Of a stretch of 64,000 nucleotides of DNA, positions 28,174 through 64,000 are shown in pieces. Where the stretch lies: contig JAGTXO010000009.1 in assembly GCA_019448385.1 (NCBI GenBank), positions 806,001 through 870,000 on the forward strand, in the 5' to 3' direction. Under the pieces are notes generated by a model. That model ran no database searches, had not been told where the DNA came from, and saw only the letters and a program-made list of their open reading frames with translations. This DNA comes from Diacronema lutheri (lineage: Eukaryota; Haptophyta; Pavlovophyceae; Pavlovales; Pavlovaceae). The position numbers and the translations under genes were made by a program. Within the stretch, counting starts at the first letter, position 1; every line of letters starts with the position of its first letter.

Positions 28174-30477
28174 TCAAATCTCGGCAAGTGGCGGTGAGAG
28201 CATGGCGTTGCCCGCGAGCCCTTTCTGCCTCGCATTGGCGGCGGCGGCGTCCGCCTCGTCGCGCTTCGAGCTTGCGTTCGACATGCGCCTGCCAATCGTG
28301 CCAGCGCGCGAGAGGCCTCGCGAGATGCTCTTATTAAAAATGCCGCGCGCAAAGTCCTCCTCCTCGGTCTGCCTGCGCCGGCGGCTCTCCTGCACGGCGG
28401 AGAGGCCGCCAAGCTTCCACCGGTTGCGCGTCTGCTCCTTGTTCTCATAGTAGAGCGCGAGGTGCACGAGGCAGAAGACGCAAATGGACGCGATCACAAA
28501 TGGTGGCACTGTCGCCGTTACAAAGCGCACCCACCCAATGTTACGCTGCGACTTGACGCAGAGCGGCTCGTTTGACTCGCGGATCGAATCGGCCGCGCAC
28601 ACGGGGTAGTGGAAGAGCAGGCCCTGGAAGTCGTTTTGCGACAGGCACGCCCTGCGCGCCGCGCGCGCCGCGCAGGGGTGGTAGGGGGGGAGGGGGGGGG
28701 GCACGACACGCGCAACGACAGGGGGCGCGGCGGTGAGCGGCCGCAGGACGGGGCGCGGGTGCGACGGCGCGGCGCGGAGCTTTGCCGCGCCCTGAGCGTC
28801 GGCGTCGGCGCGGCGCGCACTTTGACTTTTTGGTCGTAAGGTGGAACATGATGGAGTCCTCAATGCCCGCAAATTCGGCGTCAATACCAACAACCGATCC
28901 GCTCTTGTCGGGGACGCCCTGCGAGTAGGCGCAGACGTCGGCGGAGAAGCGCTCGGTCTCGACGCGGTTGTTCTCCGGGAAGCTGTCGGTGTGCGTGAAG
29001 CCGAGCACGTGCCCGAGCTCGTGCGCGGCGGTCGCCTCAAAGTCGTAACACGTGAGGCATGGTATGAAGATTTTAAACCAGATGATTGGAGGCGAGATGA
29101 GGAAGAAGACGAGTACGTACGTGTAGAGCATGTCGCGCGCCTGCGCCTGCACCGCCCTGCGCAGCCCCACCTTGTACCCGAAGCGGAAGACGTAGAAGAA
29201 GATCTGCGCGACGCGCATGAAGAGGGTGAGGAACGAGACCGACCACACGCCCCACACGATAAACTGCATCAGCAACGTCGCGTCGATCGACTCGTTGAGC
29301 AGGCGGAACTGCGCGCAGAACGTGTTGTCCAGGTACCTACGCGCGCGCGTCGCACGCATGCACGCGTTGGTCGACGGCGCGCGGCATGGCCCGCTCGGCG
29401 CGCGCGCGCGCGCGGCGCACAGGCGGAACAGGCCGCGCGGCATAGCCCACTCGACGGGGCGTGGCCCGCCAAGCGCCCTCCCCTCGACGCGTCGAGCGGG
29501 CCACGCCGCGCGCACGGCGTGGCCCGCTCCGGTCGGCGCACTGGCGCCCGGTCGGCCGGGCAGAGCGACCGGCCGGAGAGGAGAGGGCGCTTAGCGGGCG
29601 GAAGACAGAGGCGGCTAGCCGCTGGGAGGCGGCGCCGCTGGGTGCGCACCAGCAGATATGGTTGTGGAACGTCAGCGTCGCAAATTTGATCTGCCAGTCG
29701 TTGCCGATCACTTCGCCGGACGGCGCGCGCACGCCGGTCTTCCACTGCGTCGAGTACGTGCGCACGTCGTCTGGGTTGTGCAGCACGAAGGCGGCGACCT
29801 CCTCGTCGCCAACGTCGGGGCTCTTCGCGCCGATGTACAGCTCGGCGAGCGTGCACGTGACCGTCCGCCCCTCCGCCGCGCATTCGTCGGTGACGTTGTA
29901 AAAATTGATGTACGGGTGGTTCGCGGACCACGTCGCCATCGCGCGCGCGATCGCGTCGTTCACGTCGGCGCACGTGACGAAGTCGAAGACAGAGAAATCG
30001 GCGCTGTCGTCCTCCTGGAACTGCCCGAGTAGCTGCGTGCAAAAGTCGGGCGCGATCGTGTACGTGATGCCGCCACCAAGGCCCGCATCGTCCTGCGCGC
30101 GAAAACGTCGCGCGCGCGCGCGCGCGCGGCCGGCGAGCGCGGCGTGCGTGCGGGCGCAGGGTCGGCCGACGGCGCGCGCGGGCCGCACGGCACAAGCTTT
30201 GGGCCTTCACGCCAAGCCGAGGCGCGCGGCGACGCGCGCCTGGATCAGCCGGCGCGCGGCGCGCTCCGGCCCGTCCGCGACGCGCGAGCGCGCTTGGCGC
30301 GGCGTGCGCGCCGTGCCAAGCGCGCACGAGCGGATCCTCGGGCGAGGGCCACATGATCTTCCTCTCCAAGATTTTGCCGCCCTCGTCATCTGTCGGCAGT
30401 GTCACCCAGCTGCACACGTGCGGCAGTGTGGCCAGCCAGAGGGCTGCCAGCCACCGGGCTGCCAACCATCGCAGCAT
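28174..30477 (-). CDS. Membrane matrixin-type metalloprotease, copy A
   Basis: Four exons: 30477-30328, 30092-29650, 29336-28821, 28651-28174 (about 528 residues). Junctions were set by matching the intronless paralogue at 31013-32533, for example HICWYLDNTFCAQF and TTKKSKACLSQNDFQGL. A signal peptide (LRWLAARWLAALWLATLPHV) is followed by DVNDAIARAMATWSANHPYI, as in matrixins. Then come two membrane helices (MQFIVWGVWSVSFLTLFMRV and YVLVFFLISPPIIWFKIF), the zinc site HELGHVLGFTH, the Met-turn EDSIMFHLTT, a third membrane helix and a basic coiled tail. Two zinc-binding His, the Glu and the third His are all present, so activity is plausible. Substrate unknown. Introns are 235, 313 and 169 nt. 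It stands head-to-head with copy B, 535 bp apart. Confidence 0.82.
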
Positions 30478-31012
30478 GCCCCCCCCCACCTCCGTATGGG
30501 TACTGTTGTCCGTGCCAAGAAATGGACCAGAAACGGAAACGCCCATGCCGCTATGCGCTTCCCCAAACCGTCGGCGGAAAGTGGAAGACACTGAGGTCGC
30601 AAGGCGCGAATGCGAGCGGGCGTGCAATGCAACGTGCGGGCGGCAAAGCGGCTGCGCCTTGCTGCACAGGCATGGCCTGCAGCACGCTCGCAGCCCTTCC
30701 GCGGAGGGCGATTCATCGGGAAGCGGCCGTCACTTACCGTGTAGATTTGGCGGCGCGAGCGGCGGCTTGCACGCTCTCTTGGCGTGTCTTCCCGCCAGCA
30801 TCGACCACTCCCTCTTTTCAAGCCTGCGAGCTGCGGACTCACCTAGCCCTCGGTGGCGCGCCGACGCGCTCGAACGATCGGCGCGGCCCCGCAAGCGTGA
30901 GGGAAGAGCCGGAGAGGGGCGATTGGCGAAGGGTTCGTGTTCTGCGAAATTTCCCCGAGAGCTTCCCTTCCCGAGGGGTGATCCCTCGCCGAGGGCGGGG
31001 GCGCGGCAGGCG
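30478..31012. promoter_or_regulatory. 535-bp region between the divergent metalloprotease genes
   Basis: Must carry both promoters. An in-frame ATG at 30546 could extend copy A by 23 residues, and the copy B frame is open leftward to 30353, but neither extension looks like protein. It contains two ATG-poor, mixed-composition stretches around 30590-30760 and nothing else recognised. Confidence 0.35.
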
Positions 31013-32533
31013 ATGGCGCTCGCGCTCGCGCTGCTTGCGGCGGCGGGCTGGGTGAACATGCCGTTCACCAATCGCGAAGAGCTGCGCAGCATTCGCTGGT
31101 CGATGCCCGAGAACTCGACGTCGCTCGCCGGGCTCGGCGGCGGCATCACATTTGCGATCTCCGACGACTTTTGCAGCCTGATGGTGGCGCGCTTCTCGGA
31201 GAACTACCTGCTGCGGCGCGTGCCCAACCCGCTGCAGTTTGTTTCGTGTGAAGACATCAACGACTCGATTAAGCGCGCGATGAACACGTGGTCTGACAAC
31301 TCGGCGTTCATCAAATTTGTGACGACCGCGTGCGACACGTCGCGCTCCGACCGGCGCAAGTGCACACCCGAGCTGCTGATCAGTACGTCGCCGCGCACGA
31401 GCGCAATCGGGGAGCGCGTTGCCGCGTTTGTGCTGCATCAACCTGAGGGCGGCATGTACGGCAGGCAACCGATCACGACCGCGGGCGTCGTCGCGCGGGA
31501 CGAGCTCGAGATCACGCAGGCCGAGCTCACGTTCGTGCTCGACGTGTGCTGGTTCATGGACCCGACCTTTTGCTCGCAGTTCCACCTGGCGCTGGTCGAC
31601 TTTGCCTCGACGACCACCGTCGTGCGCATGATTCTCCTCCTCTCGTGGATCATCGCTGCGGTTGTGTTCGCCTTCCGCGTGGGAAAATATTTGACCGCGT
31701 ATGCGCACGGCGGGTGGGACGGGATCTCGGTCGAGATGGACCGGACCGAGGCGAAGCTGTGGCACTCACTGTTCATGATCTTCTTCCTGATTACGCCGCC
31801 CGCCTTCTACTTCTTCGTCTACCTCCCGTGCATCGAGTGCTACGACTTCGAGTCGGCGATGACGCATGAGCTGGGCCACGTGCTCGGGTTCGCGCACCCG
31901 GACGAGTTTCCGGACGTGGATCGGATGGCGCTCAAGCCGCTCTCGCTGCGCACGTGCAAACTCAATGGGCCGGCCGACTGGCTCGCCAGCAAAGCTGTCG
32001 GTTACATCGCCGACCAGGACGACGATGTGCTCCCGAGCCGCCCGTCCGATTCGGCAGACAGCGTCATGTACTCACTTACGACGTTCCGGTCGCGCTCCTG
32101 CCTGACAGACAACGACCTGGACGGCTTGAACTACCTGTACCCGTCGTGCGACAAGACGGTCGTGCGCCAACCGCCCTCGCTCTGCGTCAAGGCGCAGCGC
32201 AACATCGGGTGGCTGCGTCTCGCGGCGACGATCGCGATCCCGTTCGTCGCCGCGGTCGCGTCGACGATAGCCACCTCGCAGCTCCTCAACCGTCGGCTGC
32301 GTCGCCGAGCCTCGTCGCTCCGGCTGCAGGAGGCGGTCGTGCGCACGCTCGCGCAGCGCCGGATCTGGGACATGGAGCGCAACGAGCGCCAGCTGCTCAG
32401 CCAGAACAAGCTGCTCAAGGAGCGGCGAGCGGCGAGCGGCGCGTCGGCCGTAGACAGCGACGCGGGCACTGGGCTGGTGATGGCGACGCGCGACTTCACG
32501 CAGGTCGAGCTGAGCCAGCTGCTGCGCACGTGA
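31013..32533 (+). CDS. Membrane matrixin-type metalloprotease, copy B
   Basis: A 506-residue intronless paralogue of copy A. Signal peptide at residues 1-13 (ALALALLAAAGWVN). The first half of the catalytic domain holds GLGGGITFAISDDFCS and DINDSIKRAMNTWSDNSAF. Membrane helices fall near 203-223 and 251-271. The zinc motif HELGHVLGFAH is at 285-295, the Met-turn SADSVMYSLTTF has Met352, and CLTDNDLDGLNYLYP matches the end of matrixin domains. A third helix near 396-425 precedes a charged, Arg/Leu-rich cytosolic tail. With a signal peptide plus two helices, both halves of the protease domain end up on the same (lumenal) side, which is compatible with folding. Metzincin membership is well supported; the biological role is unknown. 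Confidence 0.85.
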   Translation: MALALALLAAAGWVNMPFTNREELRSIRWSMPENSTSLAGLGGGITFAISDDFCSLMVARFSENYLLRRVPNPLQFVSCEDINDSIKRAMNTWSDNSAFIKFVTTACDTSRSDRRKCTPELLISTSPRTSAIGERVAAFVLHQPEGGMYGRQPITTAGVVARDELEITQAELTFVLDVCWFMDPTFCSQFHLALVDFASTTTVVRMILLLSWIIAAVVFAFRVGKYLTAYAHGGWDGISVEMDRTEAKLWHSLFMIFFLITPPAFYFFVYLPCIECYDFESAMTHELGHVLGFAHPDEFPDVDRMALKPLSLRTCKLNGPADWLASKAVGYIADQDDDVLPSRPSDSADSVMYSLTTFRSRSCLTDNDLDGLNYLYPSCDKTVVRQPPSLCVKAQRNIGWLRLAATIAIPFVAAVASTIATSQLLNRRLRRRASSLRLQEAVVRTLAQRRIWDMERNERQLLSQNKLLKERRAASGASAVDSDAGTGLVMATRDFTQVELSQLLRT

Positions 32534-35871: not shown

Positions 35872-36375
35872 ATGGCGTCCGTTGCGTGGGGCGCGCTGTT
35901 CAAGATCAACCGCGATGACGCACACATCGCCGAACGAATCAAAGCGTTCGACCGTCCGCAGCGCCGGGGACCGCAGCCGCAGATCCCCGGGCCCATCTAC
36001 GCGCAGGTCGTCCACGGGCGCGCGCCAGCACCCGCGGAATACCCGACGCTCGCAAAGCCATACCCGTGGGTGAGCACAGCGGCGGAGGACAGGCAGCGGC
36101 TTGCGGACCCCATCGTCGGCTACATTGGCCACCGTCCGCGAAAGCGCGAGGCCTTCTCGCAGAGCACCTTCCTCCCGATTAACCAGAACGCGTCGATCGT
36201 CACAAACCCGTGGCGCTCGACAGCCTCCGTCAACTTCACCGGCCACAAGGAGGAAGTCACACGCCTCGCGCACGGCAGGTCGCAAAGCCAGTCCGCCCGG
36301 TGGGATACGATGCGCACCTTCAGCGCTTCACGGGCTTCGGTCGGCGCACTGCCGACGCTTTCGGGGAGGGTATAG
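35872..36375 (+). CDS. Probable ciliary microtubule-associated small protein
   Basis: A 167-residue protein from the ATG at 35872 (ASVAWGALFKINRDDAHIAE). It contains PIVGYIGHRPRKREAF and INQNASIVTNPWRST, then VNFTGHKEEVTRLAHGRS. The short GYxGHxP motif and the Pro/Arg/Tyr-rich, poorly structured composition resemble ciliary microtubule inner proteins (CIMIP2/FAM166-like). That resemblance is by motif only. No membrane segment or signal peptide. The promoter side is AT-rich. The TAG stop at 36373 is only 16 bp from the stop of the convergent Fanzor-fusion gene. Confidence 0.45.
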   Translation: MASVAWGALFKINRDDAHIAERIKAFDRPQRRGPQPQIPGPIYAQVVHGRAPAPAEYPTLAKPYPWVSTAAEDRQRLADPIVGYIGHRPRKREAFSQSTFLPINQNASIVTNPWRSTASVNFTGHKEEVTRLAHGRSQSQSARWDTMRTFSASRASVGALPTLSGRV

Positions 36376-36391
36376 AGGGTTCTTCCGAACC

Positions 36392-39300
36392 CTACGCAGC
36401 CCCCGTGGGAGCTTGAGCCAGCGTGTTCCGGAACGTGTTTTGCGTCGATACGGGCTGCAGCCGCGCCGCCTGCGCGCGAGCTGTGAGTGCGAGGATGGGC
36501 GCTCGGGGCGCCGGGTGTCGCGGGGGTGCCGCACATGGCGGCCCAAAGCGGCCGCCTGTCGCGGCGAGCGATCGCGGGTCGTGCACGTTGTGCCGACTGT
36601 CGGCGCAGGCGACGCCGCCCGCGGTCGCATCGAGCGACGCGTCGCCCAGCGCGCCTCGCGCCGCGGGCCAGCTGGCCGTCGGCGGCGTCGCGCTGGGCCT
36701 TGGCGGCTGCACGTGGGTGGCTGTGGGCGCCTCGTCGGGTCCGCCTGGCCGGCAAGCCGCGCCGTCGCACGTCGGCGAGAGCGCGTCGTCCGTTGCACCT
36801 CTGCCGCTCCGACCCCGACCGCGCCCGCCACTCGCCGCGCCGCGCGCGGCAGCCGCACCGCGCCCACCGCGCGCGCCACCTCCACTGCGCGCGCCGCGCG
36901 CAGCGCCGCTGCCGCCGCTGCCGCCCTGGCTGCCGCGGCCGCCGTCGCCGCCGTCGTCGCCGCCTTCGTCGTCGTCTTCGTCACCGTCGTCGCCGCCGCC
37001 AGCATCGCCGCCGCCGGCGTCCGCCGCTCCGTGGCGCACGTCGTGCGTGCGCTCCTGCTCGTAGGCCACGCCCCACAGCCGCGCGACCTTGGCGAAGCGC
37101 GTGCGCTCGGACGTGATCTCGTCGCACCACTGCTCGCCGGCGGCATGGTACGCGACCATGTCCAGGACGTCGTAGTAGATGTTGCGCGCCGCCGTGAAGT
37201 CGCGCTGCAAGAAGGCGTTGCACCCGGAGCAGAAGGCGATGCGGCGGACGTCGCGCTGCCCGCCGGTCGGACGTGCCACGCGCACCTTTGCGTGGTCGAG
37301 CTGCGCGCAGCAGCGCTCGCGCCTGCGCCCGCCGGCGGCGCCGGCATCGGCGCCAGCGGCGGGCGCCGCGGCGGCCGGCGGTCCGGCCGCAGCGGCGTTC
37401 CCCTCGCCGCTCGCAGCGCAGCCACCGCACGTCGCGTCGCGCGGCGCGGCGGGGCCGGCGGCGCGCGCCTTGGCGCGGAAGACCGAGCAGCACTTGCTCG
37501 ACAGCGGCTCGGGCACAAACGTCGTCGCGACGCCGAGCTTGCGCAACGCGCGCAGCAGCCCGACGCCGAGCGCAGGCGCGGCGCCGCGCGCAAAGCCGCC
37601 GCCGCGCGAGCGGTGGAGGAAGTCGCCGCAGGCGACGAGCAGCTGGTCCGGACGCAGCCCGACGTCGGTCGCGTGCGCCTTGACAATCCGCGCCGCCGCC
37701 GCCGCCGCCACCGCGCGCCCGCACATGGCCGAGCGCGCGTTCGAGCGCAGCTGCGCCGGCGTCGCGTACACGGGCGCGGTCTCGGCGCGCATGCGCGCGC
37801 GCGCATTGTTGTAACCGAGCAGCTGGTTCGCCTCGGTCGCCGTGTGTCCGACGTGCGCCGCGCGCAGCGCTGCCTCGAGCGACGCCGCCGTCGGCCCCGC
37901 GCCGGCGCCGCCGGCCGGTGGCACGCCGAGCGGCGCGTGGCGCCTGCGCTCAAGCGCCGCGCGCGCGCGCGCGTGGCCGGCGCGGTGCGCGCGCGCCGCC
38001 TGCGAGATGGTCACCGAGATGGGCGCGAGGCCTTGCCCGCCCGGCTCGTACGTCACCTGCGCGCGCGCGCCCGGGTCGATGACGACGAGCTTGAGCTTGT
38101 GCTCCTTGAGCGCCTCGCTCAGCTCGGCGGTCGTCGCGAGGTCAAGCGGCCCGTTCGGGTCGCGCCACCGGTCGAGGCAGGTGCGATCGCGCAGCGGTGC
38201 GGGCTCGAACACGCGAGCGACGAGGTTCACCTTCTGCCCGTCGCACAGCGCGTACAGCACGGGCTGCCGGCCGGCCGCCGCCTGCGCGGGCAGGGGCTCC
38301 GAAGCGACGTACGTCTCGCGCTCCGCCGCGGTGAGCGTGTTTGGCGGCAGCTCCTCGAGGGCGTAGCGGAAGGCGCGGATGGACACCTTGAAGAAGCGTG
38401 CAAAGGCGCGCATGCTCACGCGCGGGTCGCCCCACGGCCATTCTCTCGAGTCATCCGGCCGCAAGCGCTCGCCCTCGGCGGTCACCAACGTGGCGAGCTC
38501 GGCGTCCAGCGCGTGCCGCTCGTCGGGGGTGAGGAGACGGTAGAGATCGTGCGCGTGGAACGCGACGCAGCGCGGCACCTGGTCGCTTCGCCGCGGGCAG
38601 ATGGCGTGCGGCGGCGGCCTGCCACGGATGCGCGTGTAGAAGAGCGCGAGGCGCGCGACAAGAGCGACGCTCTCCGCTGCGTGCTTGTCCTGCGGGCCGC
38701 CGTGCGCGCCGCGCGACACGGGGTTCGGCCGCCATGCGCGCCGCGCGCGCATCGCCCGTCGCGCGCCCGTCGCCCGGCCACACGGCCGACCGCTCGCGCG
38801 CCGCGGCGCGCACCTTGTGGAAGAAGTAGCCGGTCTTGTACCGCAACGTGCGGGTCGCGCCCTTGCCGTCGGTCTCCTCGTACGTGTACTGGACGTCCTT
38901 GAGCACGAATTGGCCGAGGTGCTCGCGGAGGGCGAGAGGAAACCGATCCCTCTGCGCAATATCGCCCTCCCACACAGAGTGGGCGAGCTCGCGCGCGCGC
39001 CTCTCGCGCTTCTTGGCGCTGCCGCCGCTGCCGCCGTCGATCGCGTGCTGCCCGTCGAGCGCGGCGCGGATGAGCTTGCGCAGCAGTAGCCACGCGACGC
39101 GGCGCGGCTGCTCTTGGAACGCCGTCGCCATCTGCGTCGCCTCGTGATCCCTCGCGTAAGTGAGCGAGTTGCCTTGTTGCGACGGCGGCGTGTGCCCCTC
39201 GAAGACGCGCCGGGCCGACGGCGCGAGCGACGCGCGCGCGGCTTGCGTGGCCTCGACTGGCGGGCGACCGCCGTGCCTCGGGTTGGGCGGCGAGACGACG

Positions 39301-39969
39301 TGCAGGGCGGCCGTGCACAGCGTCTCGCCCACGGCCAAAAGTCGCGCGGGCAGGCCGCCCTCGGCCGGCATGCCCAGGAGCACGCGGTCGGCGAGCGTGT
39401 CGTACGCCTTGATCACGTCCTCGTGCATCTTGCGCGCGGCGTCAGAGAGGCGCGCGCGCTTCTCGGCGCTGATGAAGGCGTGCGGCCCGAGCGGGATCGC
39501 CCTGACGATCTCGCGCAGGTGCGGCGGGCGCTGCAGGACGGAGGTCTTGGCGCCACGGCGAAGGCTGTCGACGGGGACGCCGGCCGCGGCGGCGGCGGAG
39601 CTGGCGGCGCCCGAGCCGACGCCGCCCGCCCCGCCCGCGCCCGGCGCGCGCGCAGCATGCTCGGCGCTGCGCGCGCGCGCGGGCGCCTTGCCACCGCGCG
39701 TGCGCTTGGCCTGGCCAGGCGGCGCGTCGTCCTGCTCGGCGCGCGCCCGCCTCGTGCCGCCGCCCGCGCCCGCGCCCGCCCCGCCGCCGCCGCCGCGCCC
39801 GGCGCCGCCGCCGCGCGCGCCGCCGCCACGCCCACGCCCTTGCCCACGCCCTCGCTTTGCGCCCGGCGCGCCCGCCTGCCCTGCCGGCCGCTTGCCCGGC
39901 GCGCCCCCGCCGGTGCGGCCGCCGCGGCTCGCAGACCCGCCGCCGCCGCCTCTGGCCCTATCATCGTCA

Positions 39970-40000
<31 letters not shown>

Positions 40001-42851
40001 TGTCGTCGCCGTCGTCGTCGCCGTCGCCAGCGCCGCCGGCGGCGCCGGCCGTGTTGCTCCGCTCGCGCGCGTCGCGCTGCTGCCGCACGACCCGCACGCC
40101 GGCCGCGCACACGTCGCGCGCGCTCGGCCGCAGCCAGCCGAGGTTGACCAGCAGCGCGCTGCGCGCCGCGCACAGCGCGCGCTGCGCGTACGCGAGCGCG
40201 CGCAGGTGCGCCGTGCCCTCGTCGCCCTCCTCCCTCCGCCAGTGCTCGACGGTCGGCACATCGCCCGCGTGGTAGCCGAGCGCGCCCGCGTACGCGCGCG
40301 CGAATTCGGTCGCCCAGCCGGACGCGAGCGCGCTCGCGCCGCCCGCCGCGCTCGACCCCGCCGACGGCCCGGCCGCGCCGGTCGCGACCGCCACCGGCAC
40401 GCTCGACGGCGCGACGAAGGTGACGACGAGGAAGCGCCGCGCCGACTGGGCGTCCGCCGCCGGTAGCACGAGCAGCAGCTCGGGCGGGCGTCCAACGCCC
40501 GGCGCGTGCGCGACGACGAGGAGCTCGGTCGCGTTTGTGAGGTGCTGCGCCGCGAGGTCCTTTTGCGCGCGCGCATCCGCCGCGAGCATCTGCGAGGCGA
40601 CGGCCGTGCCGAGCGCGACTCGCTTCTGGCGCGCGCGATCGGGCAGCGTGACGAGCACCGCGTTGAAGGCGGCCTCGGGCACGCTGCCGCGCGTGCCGTT
40701 GGACTGCTCAAGCTTGGCCTCCCACGCGGGCAGGCCGCGCGTGGCCGCTGCGCCGGCCGCCGCCGCCGCGGGCGCCACGCCGCGCGCGCCGCCCGCGGGC
40801 GCCGTCGGCTGCGGCGGATCGGACGCGGCCCGTGGGACGAGGGCGCCGTGGGCGGCGGTGTCGCGCACCAGCTGCGCGTACATCTCCGCGCGCACCTGCC
40901 GCAGCCGCAGCGCGCGCCGCGGGTCGCGCGCGAGGGCGGCGACGGCGCGCTCGAGATCGAGCGGCGCGTCCGCGGCGGCGAGCGCGCGCTCGACGCACTC
41001 CGACGCAATGACGAGCGCCCCGGTGCGCGAGTCGGCGAGACGATCGACGCGGAACCGGCCCGCGTCCTCGCACGGCCCGCCGACGGCGGCGCGGTGCTCG
41101 ACTTGCAGCACCGCCGCCAGGTAAGCGACGAGCTCGCTCGCCTTCTTCTCCACCTCCGTCGCGCGAAGGCTCGGCCGCGTCGGGTTGGCGAGCTGCGCGT
41201 AGCCCGCGCGCGCGCCGTCGCGCGGCACGACGACGACGACCGCCGCGCCGACGCGCCTTGACCAGCACGTGACGAGCAGCACGACGCCGCGCGCGCCACC
41301 GTCGCCCCGTTGCTTTTCCCGCGCGTCGCGCAGCGCCGCCTCCGCGTCAGCGCGCGCGCGCCCCGACGGCGCGGCGCGCATCGCCTGCGCGGCGTCGGCG
41401 AGCGCGTCGACGGCCTTGACGCCCAGCACGCGCGCGCCGCGGTCCAGCGCGCGCGCGTCGAGCGTGCGAAGCTCCGCTTCGAGCATGGTCTCGGGCAGCT
41501 CGCACATGTGGCCGACGAGCGCGCCCACGTCGCGCGCGCTCACGACCGCGCCGCGGTAGCGCCACTGCAGGCGCTCGAAGCACCGCGCCGCATCGGCCAC
41601 GCGCGCAAGCGCCTCGGCGTACGCACGGCCCGCCTCGCCCTCGCGCGCGCGCGGCACGGCGGCGAGGTGCGCGCACCCGCGCAGCCGCGGACCCGCCCCG
41701 GGCGGCTGCGCCAGCTGCTCGGCGCGCCGCGCGTCGCTCGCGGCGTCGGGCGGCGGCGGCGGCGCCGCCGCCGCCGCCGCGCGCGCGCGCCGACCGCCAT
41801 GCCCCGCACGGTGCTGCGGCGCGTGCGCGGCCGGCGCATCTGGCGCGCGCGCGTCGAGGTTGGCGTCGCGATCCGGCCCGTGCGCGCCGCAGTCCACCGC
41901 CTCCTCCTCCGCATCGACGCGCGCGTAGACCAGCAGCTCGACCGTGCTCGCCGACACCTTCACGTCCGTGAACCGCCGCACCGTCGCCTGCGCGACCTGC
42001 ACCCAGCCGCGCGCGCGCCCGGCGCCGTCCATGGCGAGCGCGAAGCCGGCCCGCGCGTCCGCACCGCCGCGCGCGTCGGGCGCGACGGCCGCGCGCAGCC
42101 GGTACGACGCGCGCGCCGCCGCGCCGGCCGCCGCGCCGGCCGCCGCGCCCTCGCGCGCGGCGACGCGCAGCTCGAGCGGCGCGCGCGGCAGCCGCGCGCC
42201 CGCGCGCACGGCGCGCACGACGAGGAGCGGAGGCGGTGGCCGTGTCCCGAGCGCATCGCGCACCCTCTCCGCCAAGTCGGCCTCGCCGGCCGCGCCCGCG
42301 ACGTCGACCTGCACGAAGCACGCCTCCACCTCGGCGCGCGGCTCGCGCGGCCGAGTCGCTGCGGCGGGCGGCGCGAGGCCCAGCAGCGCGGCGAGCTGCG
42401 CGCCATCGTCCGCGCCGCCAGGAGCGGCGGCGCGCCGTGGCTCGGTGCGCAGCGTGCCGAGCAGCGCGCCGAGCAGCGCGCCGAGCAGCGCGCCAGCGTC
42501 CGCCGACCGGCCGCCCCCCTCGCCCGCATAGCCCGTCAGGGCGCGCGCGAGCTCGGCGATGCGCACCGGCCGTGTGCTGCGCGCGAGCTCGCTCAGCGTG
42601 CGCGCGAGCGCCGCGCACAGCGCGCGCGCGGCGGTGGGCGACGCGTCGGCGGCGTGCGACGCGCCGCCCGCGCCGCCCGCGACGATGGCTGCGGGCGCGC
42701 CGCGCGTCGCGTCGGCCGCGGCGAACGCCGCGCGCCGGATGCACGGCAGGTGCGACAGCGCGCAGACGAGCGCCGCGAGCACCGGCGCCGCGCCGGCGTC
42801 GCGCACGCCGACGCATCGCGCCGCGCCGTCAGCGCACCGCGCCGCTCTCAT
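36392..42851 (-). CDS. USP7-like pseudoprotease - Fanzor (TnpB-like) RuvC nuclease fusion
   Basis: Exons 42851-38814 and 38689-36392 are joined across a 124-nt intron (AAG|GTGCGC...CAG|G, phase 0), giving YFFHKDKHAAESVAL and about 2,111 residues. Residues 1-300 follow the USP7 catalytic fold (CVGVRDAGAAPVLAALVCAL, ELARSTRPVRIAELARALTG, GWVQVAQATVRRFTDVK), but the catalytic Cys is missing. Residues about 420-940 hold alpha/beta segments possibly related to Ulp1-type folds. An Asp run and a Gly/Arg-rich linker follow (about 960-1130). The C-terminal part matches Fanzor: RuvC-I LKLVVIDPGARAQVTY (Asp1551), RuvC-II ATTFVPEPLSSKCCSVF (Glu1740), a Cys-rich zinc site (TCGGC, FCSGC) and RuvC-III LQRDFTAARNIYYDVL (Asp1843). 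All three acidic residues are present, so RNA-guided DNA cleavage is plausible. An in-frame upstream extension runs to the TAA at 42927. One ORF covers USP-like part, linker and Fanzor N terminus. Confidence 0.82.
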
Positions 42852-42926
42852 CGCCTTGCGGCGCACGCACCGCTGCCACGCCGGGTGCCGCAGGTAGGCG
42901 CGCGCGTCCGCCGCGCCTAGCGTGCG

Positions 42927-47319
<4,393 letters not shown>

Positions 47320-47676
47320 CGCGCGTGCCCTGCCGGCGAGGTGGGCGCGCGGAAGGGGCGTATGGTTTGGAGAAAGGAGGCGCGCAGGTCAGCGCGGGGA
47401 TGCGTGGGATGAGCACGCGCCGGCCGCATGGCGAGATAACGCGCCCGCGCGCGGACGCGAGCCGCGCGTCGCACCGGCGCCGGGTCCACACACCTCGTTG
47501 GAGCGTCAGGGGCCAGAAGAGCGTCTCGTGGGTGCAGGGGAAGGCGCTTGAGGGCGGGCACGCGTAGCGTGGAGGCAGTGGCGGTCTGAGGGGGAGCGCG
47601 CGCACGGCGGTCGCGCCGCGGTCGGTCCGACGGCGCGAGCTGCGGCGTGATCGCGGACGGTGGTGGCGCGCGTCGG
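47320..47676. other. Spacer between the unknown gene and the USP-YqaJ gene
   Basis: 357 bases between two same-strand genes, about 75% GC. No ORF with protein-like composition, no AT-rich promoter patch and no repeat were seen. Confidence 0.35.
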
Positions 47677-49771
47677 CTAGCATCCCTCGGGAAGCGCGAG
47701 CTGGCCGGCAAGCGGGCCGGAGGCGGCGGCGGCGTTCGCAACGTTGGCGGCGACGGGCTCGGCGTGGGCGAGGACGCGATACACGCGCTTGGAGTTGTTG
47801 AAGTAAGCGAGGGCCTGGTCGCCGTTGGTGTAGCTCCAGCGCTTGAGAACGGGGATCCAGCGTGGGTTGCACGTTGCGGCGAGGTCGATCTTGGCGTTTT
47901 GCAGGGCGTGGTAGCCGCCGACAGAGCTCACCTCGATGCGGTTGTCGGAGAATTTGGTGTACGTGAGTGTGCAGAAGTGCGTCTCCGTAGCGGCGACGAA
48001 GGCGTCGGCGAGGCCGGCGATGTCAGTGGCGCCGGCGCACGACAAGTCGGAGAGGTCGGCGTTGCCATCGACCATCTGGTGGAACGCGCGCGTGAGCATG
48101 ATCGCCTCGAGGGGGATGCGCGGCGCGGAGAAGAAGATGGTGACGCCATTGGCGTTGTAGTATTTGATCTCCGCGTGGAAGTAGTCGACGGCGCGCGCGC
48201 GGGCGAGGACGAAGAGGAGGTACGCGTGGACTTGCTCGCACTGTTCGGCGGTGAGCTGGAGCGCGAAGGTGGCCGCGATCCTCTTGCCCGTGACTTCGCC
48301 GGCGCGGTTCGTTGTCGGCGAGACGCTGAGGCTCACGCGCATGCCCTTTGCCGCGTTGGGCGGCACGCTCGACGGCGGTGTGGCGGCGAGCGCGACGTGT
48401 GCGGCGTGCGCGGCGACGGGCGCGGCGTTCGCGGGGGCGGCGGCGTCGGCGGCAGCAGTCGGTTCGGCCGGTAGCGGTGGCGCGCGTAGCGCGGGCGGCG
48501 AGGCGGAGGCGACGTGCCCGGGCGGCTTAAGCGGCACGTCGCCGTCGGACTCGCCATCGGAAACGCCACAGGACGCACCGTGTGGGTGATCTGCGGCAGA
48601 GAGGTCGGCGACGACCGGCGGATGCGAGCGCGAGAGCGTGCGTTAGGGCGTCGTCGAGCTCGCGAGCACCACAAATGGAGCCTTCGGTGGCGGCGTCGCG
48701 CACGCGCATGACCACGGCCTGCACCGCGCGTTGCGCGTTGTCCAAGCGGCCAACGTACGGTCGCAGCGCAGGCAAGCCGCCCATACCCTCGCCGTACGCG
48801 AGGCGCAAGTCCAGCAAGTGCAGGCGAATGGCGGTCTGGTTGTGCGAATGGCGCAGGCTGGAGAGGCATGCGCGCAGAGTCGCGTACTGCGCTTGGCCGA
48901 GGGCACGCTCGAGTCGACCGGCGGCATCGGCGGCGGGAGCACGTCCTGCGGTGAGGGAGGTGCTCGCGCCGGCGTGCGTGGTGCCAGGTGCGGCGCTGCC
49001 GGTCGTGTCTGTCGCGTCGTCTTCCGTGCCCAGAGTGCGCGCGCCGCCGCCGCGTGCAGCCACGTGCGCACTGGTCGGTGCCAGGCGTTGGCGCACGGCA
49101 CGGCCACCCGTGCCGGCGGATGCGGCGGGAGCGTCCGCCGCGGAGCGGCTAATGCCGGTGGCGGCGACGGTTGCGTTAAGCGTTGCGCCGTCCGTCGTGT
49201 AACGGGCGCCGCCGAGCGCGAGCAGGTCACCGCCGGCGTGCGCGTTGAGAATCGGGTGGCTCGCCGGACGAACAGGACGCACGAGTCCGAGAGAATCAGC
49301 GAGGTCGGCGACGGCCAATGCTCCTTTGACCGCAGCGCCGTCGGTCGTGTCGCGTGCGGCGCCGAGCGGGCGGACGCCGCCGCAAGCGTGCGCGTGCGCG
49401 GCAGTCGACGCGAGGCGCGGGCGCACGTCACGGCGACCGGGGCCTCCGGAGGGCGAGTGCGTGCGCGGATTGCGACCGCCACCGCGCGGCGGCTCGGTCT
49501 TGGCGGCGCGCGCCAGCGCTGGCTGGGCGGCGGCGCGCGGCGGCGACGGCAGCGACGGCGACGGCGGTGGCGAAACGCACGGGTCGTCCGGGGGAGCGGG
49601 CGAGGGTAGCACGCAGCACTCGGTGGCAGGGAATGCCGCAATTCCTTCGCGCGCCATCTCGGACGAGCGCGGCCGCCCAGCGGCCTGAGGAAGAGAGGCT
49701 CCCACCCAGCGTGCTGAGGAGGAGAGGCTCTCGCTTGGTTGAGGCTGGTCATCTACCAAAAAGTGCGCCAT
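47677..49771 (-). CDS. Unknown protein upstream of the USP/Fanzor genes
   Basis: Inferred exons 49771-48670 and 48590-47677 (about 671 residues). The 79-nt intron (TGTG|GTGCTC...GCAG|AT, with CTAAC as possible branch site) connects the two frames. The start is the ATG at 49771 (AHFLVDDQPQPSESLSSSAR). The first half has two or three degenerate internal repeats: RPLGAARDTTDGAAVKGALA resembles LLALGGARYTTDGATLNATV. A helical part follows (QYATLRACLSSLRHSHNQTA, LDNAQRAVQAVVMRVRD). The second half has a globular domain with ATFALQLTAEQCEQVHAYLL, VDYFHAEIKYYNANGVTIFF and LAATCNPRWIPVLKRWSYTN. I recognise no family. Same orientation as the USP and Fanzor genes, 358 bp upstream of them, so it may belong to the same unit. 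Confidence 0.55.
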
Positions 49772-49828
49772 GTCCGACCGTTTTCCCGTTGGCCGGTTCA
49801 AAATGACAAACGCGTCGGACAAAAGTTT

Positions 49829-49925
49829 CGATTGGCCAATTCAATTCGATTGGCGGGTTCAACAATGCCAAATCGGACTGCAAAACCTCGGATTGGCCAG
49901 GCTAATTCGATTGGCTGGTCATATA
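49829..49925. promoter_or_regulatory. Cluster of CCAAT/ATTGG boxes with a palindrome
   Basis: An AT-richer stretch upstream of the start at 49771. It has the perfect palindrome ATTGGCCAAT (49831-49840) and further ATTGG at 49849, 49892 and 49910, in two related blocks of about 30 nt (GATTGGCCAATTCAATTCGA and GATTGGCCAGGCTAATTCGA). CCAAT boxes bind NF-Y in other eukaryotes. It is likely the promoter of the leftward gene. Confidence 0.5.
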
Positions 49926-50092
49926 CCAAAATGACGAACCCGTCTGAGCAAAATCGTTCGGATTAATATTATAGCATCCCAGGGCTCGGTGTCCACCTCA
50001 GCTCTGTTTTAAAAAGCTGAGGGGTCTCCAGGATTTGTCCCGGACTTCTCCAGGGCCGCGCGACAGCGCGAAAAGGGCGCGGGCCGGGCGCG

Positions 50093-50544
50093 ATGTCTGG
50101 CGTTGGCCACGCGGGCGATCCGCGCGCCGATGACGACGACGTGGCCGAGATCCCTGGCCAGCTGGACACGCGACGCACGCTATGGTGCCGCTTGACACAC
50201 GACGAGCGGACGTACGCCGCCTCTGGCGACGACGGCACGCCGGCGCCGCGCGCGCGGCCGGACCGCGACGAGGTCAAGCGGCGCTTCAATGCGATCCGAC
50301 CGCGGCAGTTCAATACCGTGTCCAGGATGGGCCGCGCCGCGTTTGCCGAGCTCTGCGGGGCGCTGGAGGCGCTTCGGTCGCAGTGACACTCCGCTACCTC
50401 GCCGGCGGCTCGCACCACGACATCGGTTTCAGCAGTGCGCCCGGCACCCTTTACCGCATGGTGGACGACGTGCTCGACGCCGTGAATGCGTGCGCCCGGC
50501 TCGACGCAGCCACACTCCGATCTCCTCGAGAACGCGGACGGTAG
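50093..50544 (+). mobile_element. PIF/Harbinger-like transposase remnant
   Basis: Two reading frames together resemble the N-terminal half of HARBI1/PIF transposases. 50093-50386 ends FNTVSRMGRAAFAELCGALE, and the next frame gives VTLRYLAGGSHHDIG and TLYRMVDDVLDAVNACARLD. This corresponds to the family pattern of helix, LxxLATGxxxxxIA, and VxxVVxxVxxAI. A stop at 50384 and the frame change make it non-functional. No DDE catalytic region and no inverted repeats were found. Confidence 0.5.
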
Positions 50545-50559
50545 CTGGGAGTGGGACGT

Positions 50560-50880
50560 GCCTGCTCTCCTCTGCTGGGAGTGGGGAGTGTGCGACTCTC
50601 GCAGGCGCTTCATGAGCATCGAGGACGGCCGCCCGGACTCACTCGCCTTCCAGGGGGGGGGGCAGGCGCTCGAGTGCGCGGGCGTGTGGCTCGCCGATCC
50701 GCGCTTCACGCACGGCCGGCTGTACGTCGCCGCCTTGCGCACGGACCGTTCGTCGCGCATCCGCTCTGCGCTCAACACGGACGGCATCATCGGGTACCGC
50801 GAGGTGCTGAGCTACGCCGCCGGCGAGGAGGCGGTGGCCGTGGCGCGCGACGCCGCCAGTGCGCGACTCCCCTTGGTGGC
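50560..50880 (+). mobile_element. Pif1/Helitron-type helicase C-terminal fragment
   Basis: The frame starting at 50486 encodes FQGGGQALECAGVWLADPRF, then THGRLYVAALRTDRSSRIRS and IIGYREVLSY. This resembles the end of Pif1-like helicases (KSQGQTLxxVGVxL, FxHGQLYVALSRxxxxxxI), as found in Helitrons. The helicase motif residues are degenerate (QGQT to GGQA, SR to LR). No earlier helicase motif precedes it, only the Harbinger remnant, so this is a fragment. Confidence 0.5.
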
Positions 50881-51021
50881 CGCAACTAGTGGGGCACCGA
50901 GGGACGTGCGTGCGTTGCCGCTGGCGCGGACTTCGACGGACGCGCCGCTCGGGGAGGCATTACTGACAAGGGGCCGCGCCGTGGCACTTGTCGCTGGGTT
51001 CCTCCCACGTGCTGCGCTAGA

Positions 51022-52005
51022 TTATCGCCCCCAGCCAGGCGACGTCCATGGGCGGGGGATCGTTCGTTGCTCCTCGGCAGACATGTCGAAGGGCGCGAGC
51101 ACGGAGATGTTCGCAGTCACGGCCTCCACGTGGTGCCACCAGCAGGGTGGGATGTACAGCACGTCGCCGGCGTCGAGCACGCACGTGAACGCAGTCGTGT
51201 GCGCGACGTTTGCGTGAGCGGCGCGCTCGGTGGCGTCCGCGCTCAGCCATGCGCCCAGGTCGACGCGGCTGACGCGCGGCGCGCCCTCAGCCACGGCGAA
51301 CGGGTAGAGGTACGCAGAATCGTCCGGCGAGAACAAGTGCACCCGCTTCCGCCCAACGACTTGCGCAATGACCGAGTGGCAGAGGTCAAAGTGTAGCGAC
51401 GTCACTGAGTCCGTTGGAGCGCGACACAACCGGGGCGGCAGGCGCACGAGGACCGGGGAGGCCGCCACGGTGAGCACAACGCGTGCGCAGATGTTGAGTG
51501 CGGCGCGAACCAATGGGAGCGCCGCACCGTTGCCTGGCGCGCCAAGCCAGAACCGTGTCTCGGCTGCATGCGGCACGCTGGCGACCATGCTGAGAGGCAT
51601 CGCGGCCACGTCAGCGTGGAGTGCGGGCGAGAGCGGCAGCTTGCAGAAGAGGTGAGCGCGGCTTTGTGAGTCAGTCGCATCGCACGCTCGGGGATTACTG
51701 CTTGCAGCAGCAAACAGCGTTGCGTCCAGCAGCTCAGCGACACGCATATTCACATGGCGCAGCCCTCGCCGAGCTGGGTCGAACTTGCCCGTCGCGCTCG
51801 CCTCGCACGCAACCATTGCGCGCTCGCCTCCAAGACGGTCTGCGAGAGTGGACCGATCGAGCCAATGTACGCACGCCGGCCAGTCGTGCACACCATCGAG
51901 CACTTTGAAGGGCCGACGAAAGCGAAAGGCCTCGATAAAGTGCTCTGCGCTCACATCGCCGACCTCCGCTTCCGTGACCGGCATCGCCGTCCTCGCGGCC
52001 GACAT
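51022..52005 (-). CDS. JmjC (cupin-8) domain oxygenase
   Basis: Exons 52005-51528 and 51404-51022 are joined across a 123-nt intron (AACG|GTGCGG...CTCAG|TG, phase 1), giving WLGAPGNVTSLHFDLCHSVI; about 286 residues. The intron is a multiple of three and stop-free, so the unspliced frame also stays open. The cupin-8 core has HFD (first His and Asp iron ligands), QVVGRKRVHLFSP, and AGDVLYIPPCWWHHVEA (distal His). The family includes JMJD5/FIH-type 2-oxoglutarate-dependent hydroxylases and histone or ribosomal-protein modifiers; the substrate is unknown. The start is the ATG at 52005; the leftward frame extends through the G-tract as polyproline to 52116, which I reject as coding. Divergent from the APMAP-like gene. 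Confidence 0.85.
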   Translation of the reverse strand: MSAARTAMPVTEAEVGDVSAEHFIEAFRFRRPFKVLDGVHDWPACVHWLDRSTLADRLGGERAMVACEASATGKFDPARRGLRHVNMRVAELLDATLFAAASSNPRACDATDSQSRAHLFCKLPLSPALHADVAAMPLSMVASVPHAAETRFWLGAPGNGAALPLVRAALNICARVVLTVAASPVLVRLPPRLCRAPTDSVTSLHFDLCHSVIAQVVGRKRVHLFSPDDSAYLYPFAVAEGAPRVSRVDLGAWLSADATERAAHANVAHTTAFTCVLDAGDVLYIPPCWWHHVEAVTANISVLAPFDMSAEEQRTIPRPWTSPGWGR

Positions 52006-55357: not shown

Positions 55358-57035
55358 TCCGCGCCGTCCGCGCCGTCCGCGCCGTGCTGGTGGATCTGCT
55401 CCCACAGCTCGTCACCATACGCTGCGCGCGCCGCCGCCTCTCCCGAGCCGTTGTCCATCTGCGCCTTCATCGCCGCGAGCACGCCGCGCATCGCCGTGTG
55501 CGACGCGAACACGGGCGCGACGACCGCCCGCTGGAATGCGATTTCAAAATCGGAGCGCTGGCGCGCGCTCTCAAACGTTGCGCGCCCAGCGGCCGTATGC
55601 GAGGGCGCGAGCTCCGCCAGCCGGTCAAGCACCTGCGTGCGCACGCATGCGCGCGACACACACACACACACACATACACACACACACGCACACACGCACA
55701 CACACACAAACACGGCGCAAAGGGCGGGGGAGGAGGGTGGGGGGGGGGGGGGGGGGGGTCAAAGATCAAAGAGTGTGCGTGCGGCGCGTGCGTGTGGCCT
55801 CGCCCAACTCGAGCGCGCAGGCAACGGCGATCGGCGCGAGCCTTTGCGAGCGCGGGTCCAAGCACAGCCGCCCGCGCATCACGTTGCGTGCCAATGTGCC
55901 GCGCACGCGCACGCCCGGAGCGTCACACGGCCCGGACGCGGCGGGGCCCGGGACGCGCGCACATCGCGCGCGCGTGCGCGCAACGTGCTGCGCGCGCGCG
56001 CGCACCGCGTGCAAGCAGATGGCGAGGTCCGCGTCGGAAAGCTCGGTGCGCTGCGCGAGAGCGAGCCAATCGGCGTCGACCGTGTGCTGCAGAAATGCAC
56101 TCGCCCATGCGCGCTGATCGGGCCGCTTGAGCAGTCGTAACACAGCCTCGTTGGACCGAGACGCGTGTAGGCCGCTCGTGCTCTCGCCGACGGCTGTCGC
56201 GACGCGCTGCGGCGCGGGCGGCGCGGGCGGCGCGGGCGCGGCGTCCTTGCCGCGCGCGCCAGCGCCGCCGCGGGCGCGCGCCGCGCCGCTTCCGCCGCCG
56301 CTCCCGCCTGCCGAGCGCGCGCCGCCGCCATTGTTTCCGCCATCGTGTCCGCCATCGTGTCCGCCATCGTGTCCGCCATCGTTGAGGTTTTCAATGCCCG
56401 GCACGCCCGCAACGCCCGCGTCGTGGAGGCACGCGCCGACGGCCATGCGCGCGAGCAGCGCCAAGTTGAGCAAGATACGGAGCACGAGGTTGCTCGTCGG
56501 GTCCGCGCGCGGCAGCATATCGACCGGCAGCTCGGGCGCGCGCATCGACGGCACGTCGTAGCCGACGACGACGCCCGCCGCCTCCTCGGACGCGCCGCGC
56601 TGGTTCGCGGCGGCGTCGGTCGCTCCGTGCAACTTTGAAACCCACGCGCGCGTCGTGCGCTCGTTGCTCGCGCCGAGCGCCTGCACGAGCGCGTCGACCG
56701 CGTCCCTGTCCTTGCGCGCCGCGCGCGCGACGAGCTCCTCCGTCGTGCCGAGCCGCACGACGCCTGCGACGGCGTTGTGCTGCTCGCCGCCTATTTTGGC
56801 GCCGCATGCCGGGCAGGTGGCGATCTGCGCACGATGGGGCAGGCGCGCGGAGGGCCGTTTCAAAATGGGCGGGAGGGGCGCGCCCACCGCGAGAAGAAGG
56901 CCGCCCTTCGCGGTGCCCGCCCTTCGCGGTGCCCGCCCTTCGCGGCGCCCGCCCTTCGCGGCGCCCGCCCTTCGCGGTGCCGGCCCTTCGCGGTGCCCGC
57001 CCTTCACAGTGCCCGCCCTTGGCAGCGCCCCCCCC

Positions 57036-57096
<61 letters not shown>

Positions 57097-57129
57097 CAGC
57101 CGCACGCACGCACCTGCATGCCCTTCGCG

Positions 57130-57185
<56 letters not shown>

Positions 57186-57454
57186 CAGCCGCACGCACGC
57201 ACCTGCATGGGCATCGTGCACCCGCCGATAGAGTAGAGGTGGCCGTTGGGGCAGCGGTACCTGCGCGCGCACGCCAAGCAGCGCGCCACGTGTGGCCGGT
57301 GGCAGCACGAAACGGTAAGCGTCAAGGTAACGGCCGACACCCCCCCCCCCTCCCCCCTCCCCACCTGCCCCGCCCGCCCGAGCAGCCGGCCCGCGCGCGC
57401 AAAGCAACCGACGACCCAGCCCCCTGCCAATCCCCCTCCCCTCCCCCTCCCACC

Positions 57455-57485
<31 letters not shown>

Positions 57486-63400: not shown

Positions 63401-64000
63401 GAGCTCCTTGCTCGGCTGCTTGACCAGCTCGTACCGCAGCAGCTTGACGAGTGCAAAGTAGTCGCGCGAGCCGATCCACTCGCGCCCGCCTTCCGACAGC
63501 GATGCCTGCCGCAGGTAGATGTCGTGGTAGGCTTGGGAGAGCGGACGCAGCCATGGCAGCAGCCGGCGCAGGCCTGAGCTCTGCCGGCGAGCGGCGAGCG
63601 GCGCGCCCGGCGGAGGCGTCCACGATGGCTGGCGCGCGGCGGCGTGCCGAGGAATGCCGCCGCTCGCGCCGACGGCCGCGCTCGCGCTGACGTCCGTCGC
63701 GTTTTCCGACTCAGGCGGCAGAGGCGCGCCTGCGCCGGGCGCGCTGGTGGGCGCACCCGCGGCGGGCGAGAGTGCCGCGCCCGAGAGGATCGAGATGGTC
63801 GTCAGCTCGAGGTCGGTCGAGCTCGGCTCGGTGCGGCGCAGGCAGACCGAGCGGTTCATCTTGGCAGGGTCGAGGGCCTGATGAGAGAACGGGGCGCGCG
63901 GCGGGGGCGTGTAAACTTACGGGACGTGGGGGCACGTGGGCCACAACCGTGCGGTCGATGTGATCGCGCGCGACGCCGGTCGACGCGGATCCAAGTGAGC
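53638..64000 (-). CDS. RNF213-like (mysterin-type) E3 ligase, C-terminal part; runs off the window
   Basis: Exons, 5' to 3': beyond 64000-63921, 63877-62886, 62642-57513, 57260-57203, 56824-56006, 55632-53638. The first shown exon reads ALDPAKMNRSVCLRR, typical of the RNF213 AAA region; then VVLVNHDNLYEALYDVLNQR joined to YVLRAGQRLLRIAIGA, and KLVVVVEASHALTSLDLPLL with NRFEKQLL. The RZ finger is rebuilt by splicing: YRCPNGHLYSIGGCTMPMQ joined to IATCPACGAKIGGEQH. RNF213 is a giant AAA ATPase and E3 that ubiquitinates lipids and proteins at lipid droplets and intracellular bacteria, and its RZ finger is needed for the latter. I see no RING finger between the AAA and RZ regions. Long Gly-rich and Asp/Gly linkers are inserted, and the last exon has a ten-residue repeat. 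The N terminus lies outside the window. Confidence 0.85.
55139..55290 (-). repeat. 30-bp coding minisatellite in the RNF213-like gene
   Basis: Five tandem copies of a 30-nt unit (plus-strand text GTGTCGGAGGTGAGGACCGA, then GCTGCCCGCC) encode TAGSSVLTSD repeats. The copies are nearly identical; one has a single change giving Leu. Confidence 0.95.
55658..55758. repeat. (CA)n microsatellite followed by a G20 tract in an intron
   Basis: ACACAC-type repeats from about 55658 to 55711 and a G run at 55739-55758, both inside the inferred RNF213-like intron 55633-56005. Confidence 0.9.
56903..57030. repeat. 16-bp minisatellite in an RNF213-like intron
   Basis: Eight tandem copies of GCCCTTCGCGGTGCCC or close variants, inside the 378-nt intron 56825-57202. 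Confidence 0.9.
57038..57209 (-). repeat. Duplicated splice-donor cassette with C57 and C54 tracts
   Basis: The 26-nt sequence GGCAGCCGCACGCACGCACC followed by TGCATG occurs identically at 57095-57120 and 57184-57209. Each copy is adjoined on the left by a homopolymer (57 C and 54 C). On the coding strand each unit reads exon end ATGCAG, donor GTGCGTGCG, then a long G run. The right-hand copy is the functional donor of the RZ-finger exon. Confidence 0.9.
57457..57485. repeat. Poly-C tract in an RNF213-like intron
   Basis: A run of about 29 C inside the inferred intron 57261-57512, with a shorter C-run at 57341-57350. Confidence 0.85.

Follow-up and report, generated by a model that had tools for sequence, protein, structure and literature searches.

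We analysed a 64,000-nt stretch of the assembly of the haptophyte Diacronema lutheri (GCA_019448385.1, contig JAGTXO010000009.1, positions 806,001 to 870,000; hereafter the window, C36:806001-870000 in the 43,492,796 bases and 103 contigs that were searched). Judged by comparison with its relatives, the locus on the reverse strand of this window is a damaged member of a family of mobile elements that is present in many copies. In our overall reading, which we consider probable though well short of certain, the element encodes one giant protein, in which a ubiquitin-specific protease (USP), a RecE/lambda-type exonuclease, modules of unknown fold and a Fanzor-like nuclease would follow each other from the N to the C terminus, and may spread by recombination. 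The modules, in the order of translation, are as follows (window coordinates, strand, feature and basis):

46258..46896, -, USP (C19) domain carrying a Cys box, KTCYLNALLQALF, and a His box, HNGHF (Pfam UCH, PDB profile)
46103..46257, -, probable intron within the USP domain, GT-AG, phase 0 (read from the sequence; comparison with C28)
45466..45689, -, (GGC)n/(GAC)n linker coding for Gly/Ser and Asp runs (tandem repeats)
44654..45427, -, module B, which has a motif resembling a His box; not established as a USP (hhalign to true USP, 0.85%)
42936..43532, -, RecE/lambda-exonuclease-like domain, YqaJ-type PD-(D/E)XK (PHROG 434; D, E and K invariant)
41916..42818, -, module C, called USP7-like in the sequence-only reading, USP nature unsupported (shuffle z, hhalign, PDB)
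40050..41890, -, conserved middle modules (shuffle z for window-C28 and C28-C9)
38814..39554, -, Fanzor N-terminal region, sharing the frame of the upstream modules (tblastn, shuffle z)
38690..38813, -, intron, GT-AG, 124 nt, joining both exons (junction kept in W, D and K copies)
36392..38689, -, last exon, with the Fanzor RuvC/zinc-ribbon part (37035-38689) and a low-complexity tail (motifs, shuffle z, four-family alignment, PF07282)
37199..38077, -, RuvC-I Asp (38077-38075), Glu (37510-37508), RuvC-III Asp (37201-37199) and CxxC (37231-37220), invariant in four families

By its conserved residues, the C-terminal part is a Fanzor-like nuclease, as the sequence-only reading had claimed. The motifs VVIDPG, FVPEPLSSK, CSGC and QRDFTAARNI on which that claim was built are indeed found in the last exon. 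In an alignment of four families from the same genome, one of them the canonical Fanzor L002, residues D205, E394, C401, C460, C487, C490 and R496-D497 are invariant, which gives the RuvC Asp-Glu-Asp triad and the zinc-ribbon cysteines before the last Arg-Asp that are characteristic of Fanzor and TnpB. L002 scores 39.9 bits in Pfam (cut-off 26.3), and both L002 and the C9 copies exceed the Pfam TNB cut-off. The top PDB match of the family profile is Guillardia theta Fanzor1 (E 0.0032, profile positions 204-407), followed in the list by weak matches that include Cas12f and TnpB. The Fanzor N-terminal region was recovered by tblastn in C69 (E 4.9e-16) and C76 (E 6.1e-13). In protein searches the family profile matched the Diacronema protein KFE25_001828 and a 262-aa protein on a 1,765-base contig; no external homologue of the Fanzor core or of P0002 residues 1-960 was found among the best 8,000 candidates scored in each search, and 53 pattern stretches in IMG/VR yielded 0 confirmed matches.

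At the other end of the unit, the 46258-46896 segment is, from its profile matches and active-site boxes, a genuine USP domain. The portion downstream of the Cys box scores 47.4 bits against Pfam UCH (cut-off 23.9); PDB profile matches are to USP12/46 for the His part and USP7 for the Cys part (best E 5.3e-12), and the Cys and His residues are conserved in the window and in C28, where the USP continues in another frame with a matching end (SDALAWASGASMLVYSRLDAEP). A deubiquitinase-like module had been proposed earlier at a different place, namely as a USP7-type fold lacking its catalytic Cys at the N terminus of the ORF (open reading frame). The true USP stands at the N-terminal end of the apparent coding unit, and the claimed segment, our module C, shows no demonstrable likeness to a USP: it has no Pfam match at E<=1, hhalign to true USP gives 1.3%, PHROGs yield nothing significant and the 8 weak PDB matches include no USP. 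Module B likewise gave nothing significant as a USP by Pfam, hhalign or PHROGs, and the profiles of modules B and C are thin, so these negatives are weak evidence of absence. No PHROG match, and no Pfam match inside 40050-41890, was obtained for the middle modules. A degenerate Ulp1/C48-like identity of these modules was suggested by eye from patterns of H, D, Q and C and is unproven, Pfam and PHROGs returning nothing; the same holds for the N-terminal part of the giant frames of C69 and C9, likened to Ulp1/C48 by eye, in which the tested pieces have no Pfam or PHROG match.

Between these ends lies the exonuclease. PHROG 434, a RecE-like exonuclease family, matches the window segment at E 2.8e-6 and its counterpart in C9 at E 1.5e-16. 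The C9 exonuclease also matches NCBIfam TIGR03033 (lambda exonuclease, E 6.2e-7) and Pfam YqaJ (0.017), neither match reaching its curated cut-off. The Asp (43265-43263), Glu (43220-43218) and Lys (43214-43212) codons form a D...E-x-K motif that is invariant in a three-family alignment. Profile match and motif together place the domain with the RecE/lambda exonucleases.

Stop-free frames in other copies suggest that these parts belong to a single coding unit. In C28, one frame of 2,372 codons runs from the exonuclease region through the middle region into the Fanzor part, intron included. C69 has a 2,675-codon frame and, past the intron, a 900-codon Fanzor frame. The C9 copy (L041/L042, 20 of about 27 kb fetched) has a stop-free frame of 4,513 codons with the exonuclease, a chromodomain and the Fanzor N-terminal region, after which the RuvC part stands in a separate frame and scores over the Pfam cut-off. 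Elsewhere in the genome, matches to exonuclease-module C lie in frames of up to 6,136 codons. Because long frames are common in GC-rich DNA (65 ORFs of at least 150 aa overlap 20 kb of GC-rich DNA in the window), it is homology and not ORF length that carries the case. Comparison of the window with C28 gave z scores (100 shuffles per comparison) of 46 for the exonuclease, 7.1 for module C, 22 for the middle region, 20.5 for the Fanzor N-terminal region and 98 for the Fanzor C-terminal part. Against C9, the Fanzor C-terminal part scored 60 (window) and 53 (C28), the Fanzor N-terminal region 17.3 (window) and 21 (C28), the window exonuclease 6.0 and the middle region 6.7 (only C28 was compared); module C was not significant against C9 (1.3 for the window and 1.4 for C28). 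The Fanzor parts are 38-49% identical between families that keep the same module order. By arithmetic on the exons, an unbroken protein of the window type would have about 3,400 residues or more.

Two side observations concern the C9 copy. Its chromodomain (E 3.3e-12; frame 1-8013 of L041, residues 2180-2230) shares one reading frame with the exonuclease and the Fanzor N-terminal region, which suggests chromatin targeting. The element of about 27 kb (L042:778-4812 / L041) looks chimeric, the 5' part being like C69 and C28 up to module C and continuing as a different giant gene.

The sequence-only reading had started from an ORF of about 1,346 codons and a second exon, with an intron at 38690-38813. 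Both are present, the former as 1,346 stop-free codons at 42851-38814 (-) and the second exon at 38689-36392; the intron between them is of the GT-AG type, and its junction is kept across families: in copies of three families, GTGCGC...CGCAG stands at the identical protein position. The intron is by our count 124 nt long in the window and C42, 309 and 325 nt in C28 and C69, and about 401 nt in C76; two copies of the D family (see below) differ by 16 nt in its length, and the C9 family has no intron there, a single frame running through the position. The ATG at 42851 had been taken as the start codon. It resembles a start because of an in-frame stop at 42929-42927, but residues 33-298 of the C28 protein align to 43532-42732, across this stop (E 1.6e-25), and C42 is open there, so 42851 lies inside a longer frame, now broken, and is no start codon; this frame extends upstream via the exonuclease domain to the USP. 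Upstream of a frameshift, the coding frame passes through Asp/Gly linkers into the end of the USP domain, and removal of the probable intron at 46257-46103 would connect it to the USP exon 46258-46896. The extent of the copy and the lesions in it are:

36370..46896, -, identified part of the W-family element copy, 3' end at 36370 and 5' end upstream of 46896 (identity to C42)
42927..42929, -, in-frame stop interrupting the giant frame, same frame on both sides (C28 alignment; C42 open)
44634..44635, -, frameshift (comparison with the C42 copy)

A protein of 2,100 residues had been proposed for this locus. Fusion of the Fanzor to other domains was borne out, and the protein appears to be far larger; as drawn, the product is probably not made from the window locus because the copy is broken.

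The Fanzor-core search of the genome listed 119 matches (best 79 of 622 candidates scored), and the copy numbers are lower bounds. By identity and extent, the matches fall into family W (window type, at least 5 places, 74-100% identity), K (at least 5, 46-48%), D (at least 27, 47-53%) and M (at least 40, 37-38%); each of the remaining 42 among the 119 rows is a second fragment of a place already counted. Within W, C42:119684-128990 is 97.8% identical to window 36370-45719, and the flanks diverge past 36370; C92 and C33 resemble the window element at the Fanzor end only. A repeat at window 4441-6018, 90-94% identical, also occurs in C42, C69 and C89, and in C42 it lies near the W copy. C69 and C28 share an element of 19.4 kb (97.6% identity) with different flanks, and upstream in the C28 element stand frames that match PIF1 (E 3.3e-24) and UCH. 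In the window, a possible counterpart of the helicase was seen on the other strand:

50660..50809, +, decayed PIF1-helicase fragment, membership in the element unproven (aligned with the C28 PIF1 over 53 aa at 57% identity)

The linkage analysis of D and M used all 89 exonuclease-module C rows and 35 of 150 USP rows. Of the 27 listed D Fanzor places, 22 have exonuclease-module C at 4.3-5.2 kb upstream and 10 have a USP, likewise upstream, at 11.9-12.9 kb; 12 of the 40 listed M Fanzor places have a USP 21.2-22.5 kb upstream. With D-type queries, no linked exonuclease or USP was found at the W (0/5) or K (0/5) places among the matches listed. Starting from the proteases, a Fanzor was found 13.5-14.6 kb downstream of a third USP type in 19 of 30 listed places, and 22.3-22.9 kb downstream of the M-type USP in 41 of 42 hand-picked rows; the wrong-strand and wrong-direction control gave 0 in both sets (0/30 for the third type). 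The Fanzor rows for these two comparisons were most of the zinc-ribbon genome matches from E 6.5e-6 on and two Fanzor-core matches.

Some side observations bear on the placement of these elements. By our own count, an M-type element stands at the start of 18 contigs (for example C1, C5, C6, C10, C12, C26, C29, C80, C83 and C90-C92), oriented alike and at near-equal offset, the USP being 21.4-23.4 kb from base 1; the Fanzor zinc ribbon is at base 849-862 in five of the 18. The pattern may mark chromosome termini at the Fanzor side, or else breaks that the assembly makes systematically. A 188-bp repeat at the 5' end of the 19.4-kb element (L035:6301-6488) occurs in at least 40 places, also about 27 kb from M-type Fanzors, and holds GTGTAGG repeats that are telomere-like in look.

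The 3' ends of the W, K and D elements carry an 18-nt hairpin followed by (C/A)TATAC. In the window this is:

36370..36393, -, 3'-terminal hairpin with a 7-bp stem and GGAA loop, then CTATAC (same structure in W, K and D)

In the alignment 26 of 28 cells are paired and three of the seven pairs are changed on both sides; slid versions of the alignment are 28.6-57.1% paired, and 16 of 500 shuffles reach both the covariation score and the percentage paired of the hairpin. The D 3' terminus is present in at least 27 places at 93-100% identity over 193-200 of 200 bases (71 matches listed, best 40 of 82 candidates scored), and the outside flanks vary between copies. Rfam gave 0 matches at the gathering score in window 36000-52000. 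The hairpin is a candidate for the 3' end of an omega-RNA or for a transposon-end hairpin, and it sits where an omega-RNA would be expected.

A number of results weigh against the overall reading. For the coding unit, the one-frame evidence in the D family spans the exonuclease to the Fanzor and leaves the USP outside, and both W copies that were read through this region, the window and C42, are interrupted; C42 is open at both the 42929-42927 and 44634 sites, yet it has its own stop further down. For the nuclease, the window protein reaches 17.1 bits with PF07282, below the cut-off of 26.3, and has no NCBIfam match; L002 as a lone query finds no Fanzor in PDB; and the AlphaFold model of the Fanzor core from one sequence (pLDDT, the predicted local distance difference test, of 41) is too poor to inform. 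For the exonuclease, the C28 segment has no PHROG match, the C28 and C9 segments do not score against each other (z 1.5), and the profile has no significant PDB match (best E 0.11). For mobility, no target-site duplication was seen by eye in C69 or C28, where both ends were read, and no transposase was identified. At the 3' end, the covariation comes from only four distinct rows, 181 of 500 shuffles show at least as many pairs changed on both sides, and the terminal 120-nt folds are no stabler than shuffles (z -0.8, -0.7 and 0.2). Recent copies also lack purifying selection: the ratio of nonsynonymous to synonymous substitution rates (dN/dS) is 0.72-2.2 by segment between the window and C42 and 1.1-2.0 where defined, in frame, between C69 and C28, with few substitutions in both pairs; two of the nine C69-C28 rows, out of frame and with internal stops, were left out. 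These recent copies look neutral, as expected for young transposon copies. The protein alignments between families suggest older constraint; no rate test backs this, because third codon positions vary hardly more than the other two.

A mechanism can be proposed from what is known of the parts. Fanzor and TnpB use RNA from the 3' end of their element and cut matching sites, and RecE/lambda exonucleases resect 5' ends for recombination. In the Diacronema element, the 3' terminus would be transcribed as an omega-RNA with the DNA just outside the element as guide, and the Fanzor would cut the matching (empty) site. The attached exonuclease, together with a helicase, would resect the ends, and homologous recombination would copy the element in or retain it. 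The USP might stabilise the protein or strip ubiquitin from chromatin or from the site of the break; it might also shield the machinery from ubiquitin-dependent removal, a role proposed for the Helitron deubiquitinases in the accessible text of PMC9741609. The sequence-only reading had spoken of a coupling of RNA-guided cleavage to ubiquitin recognition, which would be better put as guided cutting, end resection and deubiquitination within a mobile element. It is conceivable, although we would not yet count on it, that these elements form a new eukaryotic mobile-element class: an all-in-one RNA-guided homing protein with resection and deubiquitination in cis, spread through recombination and no classical transposase, in many copies in one alga, and with a chromodomain that would read chromatin in one family.

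Other explanations were weighed against this reading. The stop and frameshift in the window copy, and the long frames common in this DNA, would suit a chance fusion in a dead locus, that is, a decayed Fanzor transposon beside unrelated genes with few stops in GC-rich DNA. This we regard as highly improbable, and it is largely contradicted by the module order kept across families 38-49% identical in the Fanzor and by the many copies in which the parts lie at linked positions. A polyprotein or several transcription units, such that USP-exonuclease and Fanzor act separately after processing or from separate promoters, is a rather unlikely explanation. Gly/Asp-rich repeat linkers do lie between the modules and a protease domain is in the same unit, but the Fanzor N-terminal region directly adjoins the modules upstream of it in W, D and M, and in W and D a single intron is enough to reach the RuvC part.

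It is unlikely, too, that the element is a Helitron-like rolling-circle element with an acquired Fanzor and deubiquitinase, moved by a PIF1-type helicase and Rep, with the fused nucleases as accessories. The PIF1 helicase of the C28 element agrees with such an origin, as do the 3'-terminal hairpin and the lack of a target-site duplication by eye in two copies; Fanzor1 inside Helitrons (PMC3627910) and OTU/VTD deubiquitinases in Helitrons (PMC9741609) are already described in the accessible text of these papers. However, Pfam at E<=0.1 over the 10 plus-strand C28 frames returned PIF1, AAA_30, UCH and TNB only, with no Helitron N-terminal or Rep family. The 11 H-x-H strings in the plus-strand C28 frames include none judged a Rep motif, a divergent or elsewhere-encoded Rep being possible. 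Nor are the ends of the TC...CTRR kind: the 3' terminus lacks CTRR, and the less certain 5' terminus does not start with TC. A canonical Helitron was rejected because neither an HUH Rep-helicase (plus strand, C28 element) nor these termini were found. A Polinton-like virus or Maverick was also rejected, no capsid, packaging ATPase, integrase or PolB being found in the 10 plus-strand C28 frames.

Known Fanzors are about 500-900 aa long, the figure given in the sequence-only reading. Like Fanzor1 (SpuFz1 and GtFz1, as far as described in the accessible text of PMC10432273), the Diacronema protein has the RuvC Asp/Glu/Asp residues, a zinc ribbon, a mobile element around it and a structured 3' end by the nuclease; Fanzor1 is stand-alone, whereas the Diacronema nuclease forms the C-terminal portion of a frame that has about 3,000 or more codons and includes an exonuclease and a USP. 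The Helitrons and Helentrons with OTU or VTD deubiquitinases (PMC9741609, in part) also combine helicase, nuclease and deubiquitinase in a mobile element, but here the protease is a USP (C19) and not OTU/VTD, and the nucleases are a RecE-like exonuclease and a Fanzor in place of HUH Rep and apurinic/apyrimidinic (AP) endonuclease. The phage RecE/lambda/YqaJ exonucleases share the PHROG 434 match and the conserved Asp...Glu-x-Lys; in Diacronema the exonuclease is in cis with an RNA-guided-type nuclease, and no annealing protein was noticed, with no dedicated search made. A further parallel is the engineered Cas-exonuclease fusion, a guided nuclease and an exonuclease in one polypeptide, hand-built to improve editing (PMC11471210, accessible text). 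Those fusions are man-made, whereas the Diacronema fusion is apparently natural and old enough for families to have diverged. The sequence-only reading knew of no described example, and we found none in the literature on Fanzor, TnpB, deubiquitinase or exonuclease fusions; a Fanzor-exonuclease-USP fusion is absent from the literature searched, including the accessible text of PMC10432273, PMC10711439 and PMC3627910, most subscription papers being outside its scope. A natural and long-conserved combination of guided-type nuclease, exonuclease and deubiquitinase would show how mobile elements steer eukaryotic repair. It would also make testable what Fanzor does for its element, and would supply ready-made large effectors.

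Three neighbouring genes in the window were noted in passing. The first, at 30353-32533 (+), is a matrixin-like metalloprotease whose Pfam M10 score of 23.9 bits narrowly misses the cut-off of 24, and a neighbour at 29337-30188 (-) is similar to it by eye. The third, at 55766-63859 (-), is a large host gene that is RNF213-like by eye and has the finger motif YRCPNGHLYSIGGCT; it is a candidate E3 ligase beside an element that bears a deubiquitinase.

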